Assembly: GCA_018057705.1 (NCBI GenBank)
Contig: JAGPDF010000050.1
Location: 1-34,435 of the forward strand
Source of the DNA: Thermoanaerobaculia bacterium
GTDB lineage: Bacteria; Acidobacteriota; Thermoanaerobaculia; Multivoradales; JAGPDF01
Direction: 5' to 3'
DNA: 34,435 nt
The notes beneath the pieces were generated by a model. It worked only from the letters and a program-made list of their open reading frames with translations, was not told the origin of the DNA and made no database searches. A program made the translations under genes and the position numbers. Position 1 is the first letter of the stretch. Each line of letters starts with the position of its first letter. This document shows, piece after piece, positions 24,038-34,435 of the stretch.

Positions 24038-25624
24038 TCAGCCACTCGAGTCCGACCAGATCGCGAGGCCCGCTGATTCAAAGCCGTCGCCGAAGATCCA
24101 GTTCGGATTGAACTGCCGGGTGACGTAGACGATTCCTGAATCGTCGGCGCCGGAATTCTTGTCGGGAACGCCGATGCCGAGCTCGTCGGCGCCGTCGCCA
24201 TCGAGGTCGCCCATCGCGAGGACCGAGCCGAATCCGGCGTTCGCTTGGGCAGTTCCGCCAAGGGTGGGCTCGGAGAGAACGAAGTTGACGCCGGCGGAGA
24301 GACCCTCCGCCGAGCCGCGGAGGTAGAAAACGAACCCGCGATCGTCGCCGCCTCTCCCTGGCGATCCGAGGAACAGGTCGTCGAAGCCGTCGCCGTCGAA
24401 GTCGCCGGCGGCGAGGGCGGCTCCCAGCCGGTCGCCGTCGGCGGCCGTTGTGCCCGGGAAATCCCCGAGACTCAAGATGTCGAAGACCGCCGGGTCGACG
24501 CCGGCGCTCGAGCCGAACGCCACGTAGATTCTGCCCGAATCGGTCGCGCCGCCGTCGTTCTTGAACGGCGCAGCGCTCGCCAGATCGTCGAAACCGTCGC
24601 CGTCGAAGTCGCCCACCGCGAGCGCCGAGCCGAACGCGTCGCTCGCGCCGTTGCCCGCCGTCCCGAAGTCGTTCTGGAGGAGCTCTGCCAGGCCCGCGCC
24701 GTCCTCGTCGAGAACCGAGACGCGACCTGCGGCAGGCGAGCCTCCGGCCGTCGCCGACGGAGCGCCGGAGGCATAGCCGGGGGCGCCGTCCGGCCCGAGC
24801 CCGCCGAGGGCGACCGCGAAGCCCCACTGTGCCCCCTCCTCGAGGGCGGGGTCCGCGCCGGAGACGCCCGCTGGGACGAGGACCCCCGCCTCGGAGAGCG
24901 TGAGGATCGCGACTTTGCTGGTGTCGATCGTAAAGTCGCCCGCGGTCATCGACCCCGGCATGCCGACCACGAGCTCTTCATCCTCGTCGCCGTCGAAGTT
25001 CCCGATCGTGAGGCTGTGCCCGGTCCCCTGCCCTTCGAACGCGATGCTGTTTCGGAAGAAGGCGACGCGCGTCGTGTCGAGACCGGACGGCGAGCCGAAG
25101 ACCGCGTGGACCACCCCGGCGGCCTCGCAGTCAGAGAGGATGCCGCACACCCCGTCCTCGTCCGGAAGGTCCTCGAACGGCGAACCGATCGCGAGATCGT
25201 CGTAGCCGTCGCCGTCGATGTCGCCAGCGGCGAGCGCGAAGCCGAACTGGTCGTCGCTTTCGGTGCCGCCGTCGCCACCCGAAAGGTCATCCTGGTCGAA
25301 GACCTGCGTCCCGCCGAGGTGGAGGCCGAGGCTCGAAGAGTGGAAGGCCCAGACCGCGCCGGCGTTCCCGGCGAGGCCGTCGCTCTCGCCGGGGGCGCCC
25401 ACGGCGAGATCGGTCGCGCCGTCGCCGTCGAAGTCGCCGAAGGCCAGGGCGGCGCCGAAGCGGTCGCCGGCCTGCGCGACTCCCACGACGCCGGGGCTGT
25501 CCTGGCCGGCGCACCAGTTGCGCGCGTTGCCCACGCCGCACGAGCCCGTTTGCGCTGGAAGGGCGAGCGGCGCCGCGAGGGCCAGCAAGAGAAGCGAAAA
25601 GGCAGGGCGAGAGCGGGTAGGCAT
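24038..25624 (-). CDS. Exported FG-GAP (integrin-alpha-like) seven-blade propeller protein
   Basis: Protein of 528 residues. The signal peptide is residues 1-25 (PTRSRPAF, Leu/Ala core, ALPAQ). Seven FG-GAP repeats begin near residues 55, 126, 203, 267, 330, 399 and 463. Five carry the calcium loop DxDGDGxxD/E (e.g. DFDGDGATD, DIDGDGYDD); repeat 3 is altered (NFDGDEDEE) and repeat 4 has lost it (GLGPDGAPG). The protein is therefore a predicted calcium-stabilised seven-bladed propeller, likely a surface or secreted adhesion or binding protein. The last 18 residues, FGDGFESAGLAIWS plus four, match the shared C-terminal tail. GAGGAGG precedes the ATG. It is convergent with the gabT-patA unit and divergent from the Sad gene. 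No enzymatic motif seen. Confidence 0.92.
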   Translation of the reverse strand: MPTRSRPAFSLLLLALAAPLALPAQTGSCGVGNARNWCAGQDSPGVVGVAQAGDRFGAALAFGDFDGDGATDLAVGAPGESDGLAGNAGAVWAFHSSSLGLHLGGTQVFDQDDLSGGDGGTESDDQFGFALAAGDIDGDGYDDLAIGSPFEDLPDEDGVCGILSDCEAAGVVHAVFGSPSGLDTTRVAFFRNSIAFEGQGTGHSLTIGNFDGDEDEELVVGMPGSMTAGDFTIDTSKVAILTLSEAGVLVPAGVSGADPALEEGAQWGFAVALGGLGPDGAPGYASGAPSATAGGSPAAGRVSVLDEDGAGLAELLQNDFGTAGNGASDAFGSALAVGDFDGDGFDDLASAAPFKNDGGATDSGRIYVAFGSSAGVDPAVFDILSLGDFPGTTAADGDRLGAALAAGDFDGDGFDDLFLGSPGRGGDDRGFVFYLRGSAEGLSAGVNFVLSEPTLGGTAQANAGFGSVLAMGDLDGDGADELGIGVPDKNSGADDSGIVYVTRQFNPNWIFGDGFESAGLAIWSDSSG

Positions 25625-27343: not shown

Positions 27344-27365
27344 CGCGACGAGCGTTGCCGCGGCC

Positions 27366-27455
27366 GCGGGGGCACTCCGGCACTCGGGAATCCAGGGCGG
27401 GCTCCTATTTGAAGCGTGGTCGCCCACCCTGGATTCCCGAGCGCCCGAGCGCCCC
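27366..27455. repeat. 90-bp palindromic repeat, copy A
   Basis: Imperfect palindrome with a perfect 15-bp stem: left arm 27383-27397 (CTCGGGAATCCAGGG), right arm 27427-27441. The central segment contains TCCTATTTGAAGCGTGG. A second copy lies at 31282-31371 with six differences in 90 positions; the central loop is identical in both. It sits 22 bp after the Sad stop codon. Confidence 0.85.
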
Positions 27456-27469
27456 AGGGAACCGAAAGC

Positions 27470-27503
27470 GGGGACTGTCCCTATGTTTCACCATGTTTCA
27501 TGG
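27470..27503. repeat. Short REP-like palindromes
   Basis: Contains GGGACTGTCCC (27471-27481, perfect palindrome about a central T), the direct repeat ATGTTTCA twice, and CCATG-TTT-CATGG (27491-27503). From memory, GGGGACTGTCCC-type motifs often occur beside REP-associated (Y1/RAYT) transposases; none is encoded here. Confidence 0.5.
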
Positions 27504-27504
27504 A

Positions 27505-27572
27505 AGTTCGCTGATTTCGCCTGGCGAATGGGCGGCTCTTCGTGACCTCTTTGTAGGCGAAATCAGTAAACT
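27505..27572. repeat. Long stem-loop upstream of the GGDEF gene
   Basis: CTGATTTCGCCT (27511-27522) and AGGCGAAATCAG (27555-27566) are perfect 12-bp complements. After a 2-by-2 internal mismatch, AGTT (27505-27508) and AACT (27569-27572) extend the pairing. The spacer is 32 bases. It ends 46 bases before the GGDEF start, so it could be a mobile palindrome, the 3' part of the repeat cluster, or a leader structure. Confidence 0.6.
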
Positions 27573-27618
27573 GTCACCAGTATTCCAGTCTCTATCGAAC
27601 GACTGATTGGAGCTCCGA

Positions 27619-29247
27619 TTGGTCAACGGCTGGCAGCTCACTCCGTACGCGATTCCGGCGCTGCTGGCCACGACTGCAGCGCTGGGACTGCTCGCGCTCA
27701 CCTGGCGGCGCCGGCGTGCGCCGGGCGCTCCGGCTTTCGCCCTCCTCGTCGCGTCGACGGCGGTCTGGTCGGTCTTCGAGGCGGCGATCCTCTGCGCCCC
27801 CGACCTGCCGATGAAGCTCCTGCTGACCAAGTTCGAGTACATCGGCATCGTCCTCGCGCCCGTCGCCTGGCTGTTGTTCGCGGTGCGCTACTGCGGGCAG
27901 GACAGGTGGATCCGCGGCTGGCGGGGGCCGGCGCTCACCGCCGTTCCCGCTCTGACTCTGATTCTCGCCGCGACGCTCGATCGCCACCGTTGGATCTACG
28001 ACAGCGTGCGCCTGGTCGAAAGAGACTCGACCCTGGTTCTCGCCGCCGACTACGGGACCTGGTTTCTGGTCTTCTCGATCTACAGCTACCTGATGATCGC
28101 GGCAGCGACTTTCCTGCTCCTCTGGACCCTGGGTCAGGCCAAAGAGACCTTCCGCGGGCAGATGGTGGCGGTGGTCGCGGCGCCGCTGCTCACTCTCGTG
28201 GGCAACGCCGCGTATCTTTCCAAGCTCGCCGTCATGCCGCCGATCGATCTCACCCCGATCGGCTTCACCCTGAGCATGATCCTCCTTTCGTTGGCGCTTT
28301 TCCGCTGGCAGTTCCTCGAGCTCGTGCCGCTCGCCCGGGATACCGTGATCGACGCCATGCCGGAGGGGGTCGTTCTGGCCGACGGCCGGGGTTGGGTGAT
28401 CGACGCCAACCGTGCCGCGCTGCAGATTCTCGGCGCCGCGCCGGAAGCACTGATCGGCAGACCCGCCGACGAGGCTCTGCCGGCGCGGCTCGCCGAGCTC
28501 ATCAGTGGCCCGCCGCGGCGAGAAGCCCGCGAGTGGGGTGCCTCCTTCGCGGGCGAGGAGCGCACCTACGACGCCATGGTCTCTCCTCTCGCGAGCCATG
28601 GGGGCACCGTTCGCGGCCGGCTGGTGGTGCTGCGCGACGTCACCGAGCGCAAGCGCAGCGAGCAGGCACTCGAGGCCGCCCAGGCGAAATTGCGATCCGC
28701 CAATCTGGAGCTCGAGCGGCTGGCCAGCACCGACCCGTTGACGCTGCTCGCCAACCGCCGGCAGTTCTTCGTGCGTCTGGAGGCGGAGCTCAAGCGGGCC
28801 CAGCGCCAGGGGGAGTCGCTGGCGCTCGTGATGCTCGACCTCGATCACTTCAAGGCGGTCAACGACGCCCACGGTCACGCGGTCGGCGACCTCGTGCTGA
28901 AGGAGGTCGGCGCCCTGCTCTCCTCCTGCGTCCGCGAGTGGGACATGGCGGCGCGCCTCGGTGGCGAGGAGTTCGCGCTCATCCTTCCGACCACCGACCG
29001 CGAAGGGGCGCGTGAGGTGGCGGAGCGGGTGCGGATGCGAATCCTCGACCTGCGCTGCCGGACCGCGGCCGGCGCAGTGGTGACGGTCTCGGCGAGCTGT
29101 GGCGGTGCGACCCTCAACGACTCCGTCACGACGAGCGACCAGCTCCTGGTCGCCGCCGACGAGGCCCTCTACCGCGCCAAGGCCCGCGGCCGCGACCGCG
29201 TCGCGATGGACGAGACCATGGTCTCCGGAGCGCCGTCGCCTACGTAG
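27619..29247 (+). CDS. Membrane diguanylate cyclase (7TM-PAS-GGDEF)
   Basis: Protein of 542 residues. The N-terminal seven-helix sensor (residues 1-230; starts WQLTPYAIPALL, contains FEYIGIVLAPVAWLLFAVRY) is the histidine kinase N-terminal 7TM type. It is followed by a PAS domain (about 240-345) and a GGDEF domain (about 365-530) with GGEEF at 448-452, which is a catalytically competent variant. The inhibitory site REWD (439-442) lies five residues upstream, so product inhibition by c-di-GMP is expected. LDLDHFKAVNDAHGH is intact. I chose a TTG start because GGAG lies six bases before it and family members begin right before WQxTPYA; an earlier TTG at 27607 would add four residues. The gene is bracketed by repeat clusters on both sides, together with the beta-helix protein gene. 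Confidence 0.92.
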   Translation: MVNGWQLTPYAIPALLATTAALGLLALTWRRRRAPGAPAFALLVASTAVWSVFEAAILCAPDLPMKLLLTKFEYIGIVLAPVAWLLFAVRYCGQDRWIRGWRGPALTAVPALTLILAATLDRHRWIYDSVRLVERDSTLVLAADYGTWFLVFSIYSYLMIAAATFLLLWTLGQAKETFRGQMVAVVAAPLLTLVGNAAYLSKLAVMPPIDLTPIGFTLSMILLSLALFRWQFLELVPLARDTVIDAMPEGVVLADGRGWVIDANRAALQILGAAPEALIGRPADEALPARLAELISGPPRREAREWGASFAGEERTYDAMVSPLASHGGTVRGRLVVLRDVTERKRSEQALEAAQAKLRSANLELERLASTDPLTLLANRRQFFVRLEAELKRAQRQGESLALVMLDLDHFKAVNDAHGHAVGDLVLKEVGALLSSCVREWDMAARLGGEEFALILPTTDREGAREVAERVRMRILDLRCRTAAGAVVTVSASCGGATLNDSVTTSDQLLVAADEALYRAKARGRDRVAMDETMVSGAPSPT

Positions 29248-29321
29248 GGGGCGACACAGGCCTCGCTGTCCTACGACAGGCGGACCAGCCCGCAGGATGC
29301 ACAGAGCGGAGCGCATCGCCT

Positions 29322-29350
29322 TTCGCAGAATCTCGACCGCGTCATACAAT
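29322..29350 (+). promoter_or_regulatory. Candidate sigma-70 promoter of the beta-helix protein gene
   Basis: TTCGCA (29322-29327) and TACAAT (29345-29350) with a 17-base spacer. This would give a leader of about 90 bases that carries a perfect CGCCCG-TGGA-CGGGCG hairpin (29385-29400) before the RBS at about 29434-29442. Prediction from consensus only. Confidence 0.4.
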
Positions 29351-29445
29351 CTCGCGCAAATCGGCCTTTTGACAATTCAACCGTCGCCCGTGGACGGGCG
29401 CTCGACCTGCCTGCCGACCGGACTCTCTTTTCGAGGAGAAGGACA

Positions 29446-31164
29446 ATGTCATCGACTCGCCGTCGTCGCATCCAGAAGCTGAGCGCTCTCGCGCTCCTCC
29501 TCTCCGCCAGCGGAGCGTCCCTGCTCCCCGCCGCGATCTTCACTGTCGGCTCCGACGGCGCGTGCACGCATGCGACGATCAACAACGCCCTGCTTGCCTC
29601 GCTCGCCGCCGGCGCCGATGAGATCCGCATCGCGCGGAACCAGGCCTACACCAACCTCTATATTCACCTCACCGACTGGAGCCCGGGAACGGTCGGCGCG
29701 GTGACGCTCGCCGGCGGATACGACACCTGCGCCGACACGACTGCGAGCGGAACTACGACCATCGATGGGCAGGCGACGAATCCCGTCGTCGAGGTCGACA
29801 CCGGTTCGCAGCCGACCTCGCAGGTCACCCTCCGCGGCCTCCAGCTCATCGGCTCGGGTGAGGAGGGGCTGCGGGTCGGCGCCGGGGGACAGGTGACGGC
29901 GAGCGAGATCCTGCTCCAGAACAACGGAACAGGCGGCGCCGCCGTCGTGGACGGCGGCGACCTCACGATCGACGTCCTGAGCGCGATCTCCGAAAACACG
30001 GGGCCCGGCATCACCTGCCTCACCGGTTCCCAGGTCGATACCTCGGCGATCATCCATGACAACGCCGCCACCGCGGGCGGTGGAATCGTCGCCGGTTCGG
30101 CCTGCGACATGAACATCCTGAACAACTCCGCGATCGCCTCCAACAGCGCGACCCTGGGCGGCGGCCTCTACGCCAGCAGCGGCGCCACGGTCCTCGTCGA
30201 CGGAGCCGTCGCGAGCGTCTACGCCACGGAGATCAGCAACAACACCGCGACGGATCAGGGCGGCGGCATCTATGCCACCGGAGCGACGACGACGGTGATG
30301 ATCCGAAACGCCGCGGTGACCGGCAACGAAGCCGGCCTCGAAGGGGGCGGGATCTGGGCCGGTCTCGGGGCGAAGGTCATCATGGATCGGGTCGACGGGC
30401 CCTGCTTCAATCCGACGCGCTGTTCGGACCTCTCCGGGAACGGCGTCACGCAGGTCGACATCTCCGTTCCGGGTGCCGCCGTCTTCGCGGAGAGCGGCGC
30501 CGACGTCGAGATCTACCAGACCATCGCGGAAGGCAACTACCTGACGCCGGGTTTGAACAATGGGAGCATCCTCTACGCGACTGGCGTCGGCTCGACGCTG
30601 ACTGTCGAAGGTATGCGTCTTTGGAACAATCAGGAGGCTGACGCTCTGTTTGAAGGGCGGGATAGCGCGCATCTCTCCATCGCCTTCGTCACCGCCTCCA
30701 GGAACGTTTGGAATGGCGGGTTCACTACGAGTCCGGTCGCGCTCATCGTCGGCGCCACCGCGACTCTGAACTCGAGCATCTTTCATCCGAATGACGCGAT
30801 GGTTCTGGATTCTGGCGGAGAGCTGACCGAAGCCGACTGCCTCATCCTCTCGAACACTACCGGTCTCCCCGTCGATGCCACTCTGATCAGCACCAGCGAT
30901 CCGATGTTTGCGAACGCCATCGCCGGCAACCTGCGTCCGCTCCCCTCATCGCCGGCGGTCGACTACTGCGACACGTTCGCCTATACGCCCCTGCATTTCG
31001 ACGGCGATCACGAGGCGCGAGGCTTCGACCTTGCTTCCAACCCGAACGGCACGCCGGGTGCCAGCGGCGGTCTCTACGACCTGGGTTTCGACGAGGTTCG
31101 CCCGCTGTTCGCCGACGGCTTCTTCTCGGGCAACACCAGTGCCTGGTCGTCCGTGGCCCCCTGA
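29446..31164 (+). CDS. Exported beta-helix (polymorphic-repeat) protein with conserved C-terminal tail
   Basis: Protein of 572 residues. Signal peptide 1-30 (SSTRRRRIQKL, core ALALLLSASGASLL). The body is parallel beta-helix-like with repeated GGGIxA/GGGLYA motifs and N-rich turns (NNTATDQGGGIYATG, GNEAGLEGGGIWAG). Near the C-terminus LRPLPSSPAVDYC and GLYDLGFDEVRP match what I know as the choice-of-anchor Q type of C-terminal domain. The final 18 residues, FADGFFSGNTSAWS plus four, share the tail of three other exported proteins in this window. GAGGAGAAGGA precedes the ATG. Likely surface-exposed and involved in adhesion or carbohydrate binding; no catalytic motif seen. Confidence 0.9.
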   Translation: MSSTRRRRIQKLSALALLLSASGASLLPAAIFTVGSDGACTHATINNALLASLAAGADEIRIARNQAYTNLYIHLTDWSPGTVGAVTLAGGYDTCADTTASGTTTIDGQATNPVVEVDTGSQPTSQVTLRGLQLIGSGEEGLRVGAGGQVTASEILLQNNGTGGAAVVDGGDLTIDVLSAISENTGPGITCLTGSQVDTSAIIHDNAATAGGGIVAGSACDMNILNNSAIASNSATLGGGLYASSGATVLVDGAVASVYATEISNNTATDQGGGIYATGATTTVMIRNAAVTGNEAGLEGGGIWAGLGAKVIMDRVDGPCFNPTRCSDLSGNGVTQVDISVPGAAVFAESGADVEIYQTIAEGNYLTPGLNNGSILYATGVGSTLTVEGMRLWNNQEADALFEGRDSAHLSIAFVTASRNVWNGGFTTSPVALIVGATATLNSSIFHPNDAMVLDSGGELTEADCLILSNTTGLPVDATLISTSDPMFANAIAGNLRPLPSSPAVDYCDTFAYTPLHFDGDHEARGFDLASNPNGTPGASGGLYDLGFDEVRPLFADGFFSGNTSAWSSVAP

Positions 31165-31198
31165 GCCGTCGCGAGAATTTCCTCCGGCCACACCTGAA

Positions 31199-31261
31199 GA
31201 CACATTGCGGCCACGCGCCCCTCGCGCCAACGAGCGGGCGTGCCAGCCGCTATGTGTCCCC
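31199..31261. repeat. REP-like palindrome, GTGTCCCC type, copy 1
   Basis: Left arm GACACATTGCGGC (31199-31211) pairs with GCCGCTATGTGTC (31246-31258) with one mismatch across a 34-base spacer. The right end continues as CCC. A second copy at 31428-31493 has the same arms and the same 34-base spacer length but a largely different spacer sequence. Confidence 0.75.
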
Positions 31262-31281
31262 TGCCACGCCCACCTGCCGTC

Positions 31282-31371
31282 GCGGGGGCGCTCCGGCACT
31301 CGAGAACCCAGGGCGGGCTCCTATTTGAAGCGTGGTCGCCCACCCTGGCGTCTCGAGCGCCCGAGCGCCCC
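31282..31371. repeat. 90-bp palindromic repeat, copy B
   Basis: Same element as 27366-27455. The main stem keeps CTCGAGA and CCAGGG pairing with a 2-base internal mismatch. The outer arms GGGGCGCTC and GAGCGCCCC pair perfectly over nine bases, where copy A has one mismatch. A base change in the left arm (G to A) is matched by a C to T change in the right arm relative to copy A. Confidence 0.85.
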
Positions 31372-31427
31372 TGTGGAACAGGAAGCTGCTCTCGCAACCC
31401 TGCCGACGAGGGGTGGCGGCAACAGTT

Positions 31428-31493
31428 GGGGACACATTGCGGCCACTTGGAGGTTTGAGCGTCTCCGCGTCGTGACAGCCGCTATGTGTCCCC
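31428..31493. repeat. REP-like palindrome, GTGTCCCC type, copy 2
   Basis: GGGGACACATTGCGGC (31428-31443) and GCCGCTATGTGTCCCC (31478-31493) pair over 16 positions with one mismatch, across a 34-base spacer. It is the more complete of the two copies, with the full GGGG/CCCC ends. Confidence 0.75.
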
Positions 31494-31616
31494 GGGAATG
31501 GCACCGTAAGTGCCGACGAACCCGCGAACGCTCGAGGGCGGATACGTGTCCCCGGCGTACCCAGGCGGGCCAGACGGGACGCCGAGCAAGTGCCCCGCAG
31601 GACGAGGGCGCTGCGC

Positions 31617-33183: not shown

Positions 33184-34435
33184 TCAGAAGACGCCGACGG
33201 ACCAGGCCGAGAGGTCGCCCGATCCGAAGCCGTCGAGAAAGATCGCGAAACCGGGAAGTCTCGCGGTGTAGAGCTCGATCTGGCTGTCGACGGTCTGGTC
33301 GGCCGGATAGACCACCACCCGGCCGTTCGCGGCGAGGTCGAAGAGCACGGTCTGAATGAACTTCAGGGAGACGTCGCCGCCCGCGACCAGGGGATCGTTC
33401 AAGTCCTCAACCGCTCCGCCTGCAATCGGAACGACGAGCAGTTCGTCGACCTCATCGGTATCCTGATCTGCGCCATAGACCACCCAGGCGCTATTCGAAC
33501 TGATCCGGAAGGCCTTCGCGTCGCCTGCGAAGACCAGCGTACGGTTGAGCTTCGTCACGGTGCCGCCGCCGATCGGGACGCTCCAGAGCTCGTGGAGGCC
33601 ATCGGCGGCCTGGTCGGCGAGATAGACGACGCGCGTGCCGTCGGCGCTGATCGCGTGCTCCAGCAGATCGCCACCGGGGGCGAGAGCGCTGTTCAGCCGT
33701 ATCCGCGCTCCGCCATCGATCGGCACGGTCCAGAGGTCGAAGATGTCATTCGCGTCCTCGTCGGAGCTGTAGACCACCCGGCTGCCGTTCGGGCTGATCG
33801 AGAACAGCGGTTCGACATCCTCGGTGCTCGCCAGGACGCCGTTCAGACGGACGACGGTGCCCCCCGCGACGGGCACGCTGAACAGGTGGAAAGTCTGGGC
33901 GGCGGCCGTAGCGGCGCGGAAGACGACGCGCGTGCTGTCGGAACGGACGAGAAAGCTCGACTCGACTGAGTGGCCGGCGGCCAGGCCGGTGGTGAGCAGC
34001 TCCGGCGCCGCGACGGCGATCGGCACACTGTAGAGATCGAAGGCGCCGTCGACCGTCGTATCGATGAGATAGAGCACGCGGTTGCCGTCCGGCGTGATGC
34101 GGAAGTAGGACTGGACGCCGGTGGGAGCCTGGGCATCCTGGAGGAGGAGGGGGTCCCCGCCGATCGCCGGGACGCTGTAAAGCCGGTAGACCCCGGTCGA
34201 GTTTCGGCCGGCCCTGTAGACCACGGTTTCGCCGTCCGGGCTCACCTCGAAGCCGTCGACGTCGCTTTCCTGGAACAGCGTCGGGTTCAGCCGCACGGAG
34301 GCCGCGCCAGGGCCGTCGATCGGGACGCTGTAGAGGTCGTACTGGGTCCACGCGTACCTGTCGCTGTAGTAGAAGACGCGGTCGCTGGTCGGGGAGATGC
34401 GAAAGCCGATGACGTCCCGGTCGGACGCCATGTTC
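33184..34435 (-). CDS. Exported PD40/TolB-like propeller protein, 5' end missing
   Basis: The frame is open to the right edge; about 417 codons are visible. An internal ATG occurs at 34431, but the repeat array is already running there and no signal peptide is present, so the true start lies outside. Repeats of about 48-60 residues carry a RVVYxADxxxDxxxELWSVPIxGG pattern in which each unit ends in xVPIxGG (e.g. [35 protein letters not shown]) and is followed by xxLNxxLxxGGDVxxFxISPDG. This resembles TolB/PD40 beta-propellers. Seven or more units are visible. The last 18 residues, [14 protein letters not shown] plus four, carry the shared C-terminal tail. Function unknown; probably secreted or surface-attached. 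It follows no gene closely on its strand. Confidence 0.85.

Follow-up and report, generated by a model that had tools for sequence, protein, structure and literature searches.

A genus-specific family of dispersed hairpins with a near-invariant apex and a covarying stem in two Thermoanaerobaculia genomes

The window, a stretch of 34,435 nt from a Thermoanaerobaculia MAG (G000; 5.08 Mb, 177 contigs), contains two 90-bp palindromes, at 27366-27455 and 31282-31371, which differ at six positions and flank genes encoding a 7TM-PAS-GGDEF protein and a beta-helix protein, as the initial annotation had described. We refer to this palindrome as H1 and to a second hairpin, which can follow it, as D2. 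The features of the locus are as follows.

27369-27455, minus strand: H1 hairpin copy 1, for which minus is the better-folding strand (covariance model R2: 102 bits minus, 53 bits plus)
27399-27425, minus strand: invariant apex of H1 copy 1, minus-strand sequence GGGCGACCACGCTTCAAATAGGAGCCC
31198-31261, plus strand: another H2-like hairpin, directly upstream of copy 2
31285-31371, minus strand: copy 2 of the H1 hairpin, flanked by convergent genes; the sister species also has H1 at this site (L080)
31315-31341, minus strand: invariant apex of H1 copy 2
31402-31417, plus strand: linker GCCGACGAGGGGTGGC, the 5' side of the D2 outer stem, a remnant here and also found 3' of H1 in most sister-species copies
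31428-31493, plus strand: second hairpin family H2 (GGGGACACATTGCGGCC..GCCGCTATGTGTCCCC), within the D2 apex
31536-31553, plus strand: right half (GGGCGGATACGTGTCCCC) of a hairpin of family H3
31567-31587, plus strand: composite tail T (GGGCCAGACGGGACGCCGAGC), the 3' side of the D2 outer stem

Compensation between the two window copies had been proposed from a G-to-A change on one arm matched by C-to-T on the other, and this exchange (CTCGGGA..TCCCGAG to CTCGAGA..TCTCGAG) is real. The matching does not extend along the whole stem: AATCC has become AACCC in copy 2 opposite an unmatched change of GGATT to GGCGT, and the stem is partly broken there. Compared with dinucleotide shuffles, the fold of copy 1 has z scores of -7.9 (plus) and -12.4 (minus) and that of copy 2 has -6.4 (plus) and -8.5 (minus), so that the plus strand, on which the palindromes were originally read, is the weaker folder. 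The single other genome of the genus is that of a sister species (G007), and both carriers are fragmented MAGs. G007 retains H1 at the site of the 31282 copy but has neither H1 nor the GGDEF gene where the 27366 copy would lie. We therefore rejected the possibility that the two copies are the ends of one mobile unit, and the suggestion that they bracket two genes as a functional unit is unsupported. Window positions 27344-29445 hold H1 copy 1 and the 7TM-PAS-GGDEF gene, neither of which the sister species has; in its genome the beta-helix gene comes immediately after that for the aldehyde dehydrogenase.

The window pair is not special. A BLAST search with copy 1, together with an apex pattern search, found 32 loop-bearing copies of H1 in G000 (backward control, 0), and there are 17 in G007, including one whose left arm has been replaced; the reservation that only two copies might exist is dispelled by these 32 + 17 copies across two genomes. 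A covariance model run over 149 genomes of the class detected no H1 in the 147 outside the genus, and a looser apex-variant pattern applied to the 149 genomes matched only within the same genus. A scan of GTDB contigs, from which records of the window's own genome were possibly left out, returned only the MAG JAGOCP01, which matches G007, and viral contigs gave no H1 match. No Rfam family scored above its gathering threshold; the sub-threshold matches were to microRNA precursors only, and were dismissed as chance because long hairpins generally resemble such precursors. No trans target of the apex was found in G000 at up to three mismatches apart from the 32 H1 copies themselves. H1 is thus a genus-specific dispersed hairpin family with two carrier genomes. 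Covariance model R2 added two divergent members in G007, L173 (C136) and L174 (C430), with the apex GGGCGACC-CGCCTGC-TARGAGCCC and stems that are different and still paired; these form a divergent subfamily with a shorter apex, GGGCGACCCGCCTGCTARGAGCCC.

H1 occurs either alone (~90 nt) or, often, at the head of a composite of ~230-290 nt with the order H1, linker, D2 hairpin, fixed tail. H1 is followed by the linker CCGACGAGGGGTGGCYGGACC, a hairpin with the loop TTCTTCA and the tail GGGCCRGACAGGACCCCGAGC in most copies of G007 and in several of G000, and linker pairs with tail as CTGG/CCAG in one group and as CCGG/CCGG in another. D2 is a second hairpin with a conserved TTCTTCA loop and its own compensated changes, one inner pair being G-C, T-A or C-G in different copies. 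Its apex is often occupied in G000 by the other hairpin families H2 and H3, and the H1 apex is itself replaced by an H5 hairpin (GTGACAGTTACC..GGTAACTGTCAC) in two copies (L123, G000 C58:5347-5504; L124, G000 C12:34602 onward), indicating that hairpin elements nest in the apices of others. The H5 hairpin belongs to a resident Y1-transposase element, and the motif CCTATTT is common to H5 and the H1 apex.

The 27-nt H1 apex, GGGCTCCTATTTGARGCGTGGTCGCCC, is nearly invariant. Among 47 aligned copies, 19 of the 27 positions are absolutely invariant; position 15 is A or G, position 1 is slightly variable and the others show single exceptions, giving a pairwise divergence of 0.03 compared with 0.19 in the adjacent stem. 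The stem, of ~30 bp, varies by compensated changes. Standard pairs make up 93.8% of cells when the copies are aligned on the minus strand, and 11 pairs show changes on both sides (e.g. A-U in 30 copies and G-C in 13, or A-U in 34 and G-C in 10). This number of both-sided changes was reached in 0 of 500 shuffles, which preserve column make-up but not relatedness and so do not by themselves yield a probability, and slid controls gave at most 5 such pairs. The covariation exceeds that in every slid control and thereby supports the original proposal of selection on structure rather than drift. A two-hairpin (clover) form of the apex with a GCGA tetraloop was rejected because the simple hairpin is more stable by 8-11 kcal/mol. 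Mispairs favour the window minus strand as the folding strand: the plus strand has 129 A.C against 10 G.U mispairs, each A.C being a G.U wobble on the minus strand, and minus is the better folder in 45 of 47 copies with RNA parameters and in all 47 with DNA parameters. Counted by sites, this skew falls to ~16 to 6, and to 9 to 6 for singletons; because a few ancestral pair sites carry much of it, the strand skew is old rather than continuous.

Eleven H1 copies have the same flanking genes in G000 and G007; in a further, twelfth pair the G007 member has had one arm replaced. Across the eleven shared sites the apex differs at 8 of 297 positions, always at positions 1 or 15 (25 of the 27 apex positions being unchanged), whereas the arms differ at 89 of 645. 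The invariance of the apex is therefore not due to recency: old copies common to the two species keep it even though the divergence of their arms roughly equals that of the neighbouring genes. In three of the shared pairs (L004/L096, L007/L094 and L008/L080) the entire subfamily signature has switched, with CAGGG, an extra base pair and A15 on one side against CAAAG and G15 on the other, a pattern that replacement or conversion would produce. In the eight pairs without such a switch, the apex differs at 3/216 positions and the arms at 63/479 (p = 4e-8), which indicates that the apex has either been constrained after insertion or been homogenised more tightly than the arms. Among stem pairs at loci common to both species, 15 have changed on both sides, 17 have changed on one side with pairing kept and 15 are broken. 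G007 is without H1 at five sites, one being the window 27366 site described above. H1 is also absent from G007 at the counterpart of C132:2044, the entire H1-D2-tail composite is missing at C8:66722 with flanks that can still be aligned, a 502-nt cluster is missing at C7:32827, and at C49:15382 the G007 site is filled by other hairpins with no H1.

All 32 G000 copies are intergenic or at gene edges. For the 42 copies with both neighbours resolved, with genes taken from a simple codon-bias caller and hence approximate, the neighbours are convergent for 17 copies, tandem for 23 and divergent for 2. The comparison set of sampled intergenic regions (120 nt or longer), a baseline that is not length-matched to regions which the repeats themselves lengthen, comprises 13 convergent, 42 tandem and 30 divergent contexts; against these, H1 is depleted from divergent promoter regions (p = 1.4e-4) and enriched in convergent ones (17/42 vs 13/85, p = 0.003). 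Tandem copies show no preferred orientation relative to neighbouring transcription (12 vs 11), which argues against a role as part of a read-through mRNA.

A search for a RAYT or other Y1 transposase had been suggested, and a link to such a gene was not borne out: Y1/RAYT-type genes are present (11 Y1_Tnp genes in G000 and 2 in G007), but H1 adjoins none of these 13 genes, their flanks carrying other repeats or none. Four in G000 and one in G007 (L061-L064, L177) have their own flanking repeats (GGGGACAGTCCCC, GTGCCTGTCCC, GGTAACTGTCAC or GTGTGTCCC), as fits TIRYT elements (PMC3733652). Several members of a second Y1 group (L065-L071, L178) have open frames of 320-355 aa and some look degraded; repeats of the GGTGCCACCCGATTT type lie near several of them, in some cases upstream. 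The tags of known repeat systems are not conserved at the H1 feet: GTAG occurs at 4/47 left feet (shuffled expectation, 2.4) and 5/47 right feet, CGTC near only 12/47 left feet, and GGGGWSAS near either foot in 0/47 copies.

H1 resembles the REPINs, or REP doublets, associated with RAYT genes (PMC3116915) in being an extragenic inverted repeat that forms a long single-strand hairpin, in having many clustered copies, in the compensatory changes of its arms and in being present or absent between relatives. REPINs have conserved ends (the REPs) and a less conserved apical spacer that covaries (PMC3116915), whereas H1 is inside-out, with an invariant apex and covarying arms, and has neither a conserved GTAG nor a RAYT gene flanked by it. 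The TIR repeats of TIRYT elements (TIRtrons, PMC3733652) are close in that G000 carries such elements and H1 clusters with such hairpins, but H1 is without GGGGWSAS near its feet and without a cognate gene. The CGTC-tagged REPs are likewise orphan palindromic repeats with no transposase link, but have stems of 8-9 bp and loops of 4-5 nt (PMC3733652) where H1 has a ~30 bp stem and a long apex. The repeats bcr1-bcr18 of Bacillus cereus are also lineage-specific dispersed repeats, of 100-400 bp, with features of mobile elements (bcr1 averages 39 copies per strain; PMC6542083); a TTTAT-linked mobility is reported for bcr repeats (PMC6542083), whereas no such motif was recognised in H1, and we claim no sequence relation. 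H1 is therefore like a REP/REPIN-type non-autonomous hairpin in its many extragenic hairpin copies, and unlike one in having no tag and no cognate gene.

Our best explanation, to which we assign a probability of about 0.5, is that H1 is a genus-specific, non-autonomous, orphan REP/REPIN-like extragenic palindrome whose folded single strand is recognised by a putative factor. H1 would function as a folded single strand, most probably ssDNA that replication or cruciform extrusion exposes, and a putative protein would bind the apex in trans, such recognition serving to spread new copies and to keep old ones homogeneous. This reading draws on a stem kept by compensated changes, a near-invariant apex, intergenic placement, neutrality of orientation, retention at shared sites and presence or absence elsewhere. 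Recognition of the folded strand at its apex is mechanistically plausible since TnpA-REP enzymes bind folded ssDNA strand-specifically and rely on features of the loop and of mismatches (PMC8266576); in H1 itself, the strand bias of the mispairs is no more than suggestive of strand-specific recognition and cleavage of this kind. Neither a cognate transposase nor a binding protein for H1 was found in the two genomes.

The main rival to the folded-ssDNA reading is an RNA function, in which H1 (and D2) would be dispersed structured RNAs, either independently transcribed small RNAs or mRNA tails, and an RNA-binding protein would bind the apex. Covariation, an invariant apex and a one-strand preference for G.U are its standard signature, D2 adds compensated changes under a conserved loop with three alternative pairs at one position, and copies are retained at the 11 shared sites. 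We nevertheless consider it unlikely, as in tandem contexts a read-through mRNA would contain the folding strand only half the time, no Rfam family is matched, the sequences read have no terminator T-run 3' of the hairpin and copies come and go between species. Less probable still is that H1 works as a static DNA element or a bidirectional 3'-end element: once extruded, the hairpin would bind gyrase or a nucleoid protein, or would stop read-through or exonucleases in the space between genes. Convergent enrichment, divergent depletion and neutral orientation fit such an element, as does constraint on the apex at resident sites; however, a simple barrier or terminator needs neither an invariant 25-nt apex nor a preferred strand, insertion followed by purifying selection also gives convergent enrichment, and the distribution is limited to the genus. 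A purely mutational origin of the covariation, with hairpin-templated (quasi-palindrome) correction copying arm to arm and gene conversion homogenising copies, could account for the three whole-signature switches but is very improbable, given that it leaves a fixed apex between diverging arms in the other eight pairs unexplained and that wobble mispairs persist uncorrected.

Returning to the orphan REP/REPIN-like reading, a purely mobile element should degenerate once inserted, which the apex at the shared sites has not done, and a mobile-only account needs a resident function or gene conversion in addition. A more tentative and rather doubtful proposal is that the apex is the binding site of a putative nucleic-acid-binding factor acting on resident copies genome-wide, H1 being a domesticated, functional element kept by compensatory evolution at conserved intergenic sites and not mobile debris; if so, the copies would constitute a hairpin regulon or chromosome-organising sites. 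The usual explanation for repeated extragenic palindromes is recognition of their ends by a transposase, whereas in H1 the ends vary and the apex is fixed. With this family one can test concretely whether such repeats do no more than move or are kept for the benefit of the host, and the defined 27-nt apex is a ready-made bait for the factor.

Finally, predicted secreted proteins encoded in the window at 814-2208, 24038-25624, 29446-31164 and 33184-34431 share a C-terminal tail like FADGFFSGNTSAWS / FGDGFESAGLAIWS, which, judged by its sequence, is a possible C-terminal sorting signal.
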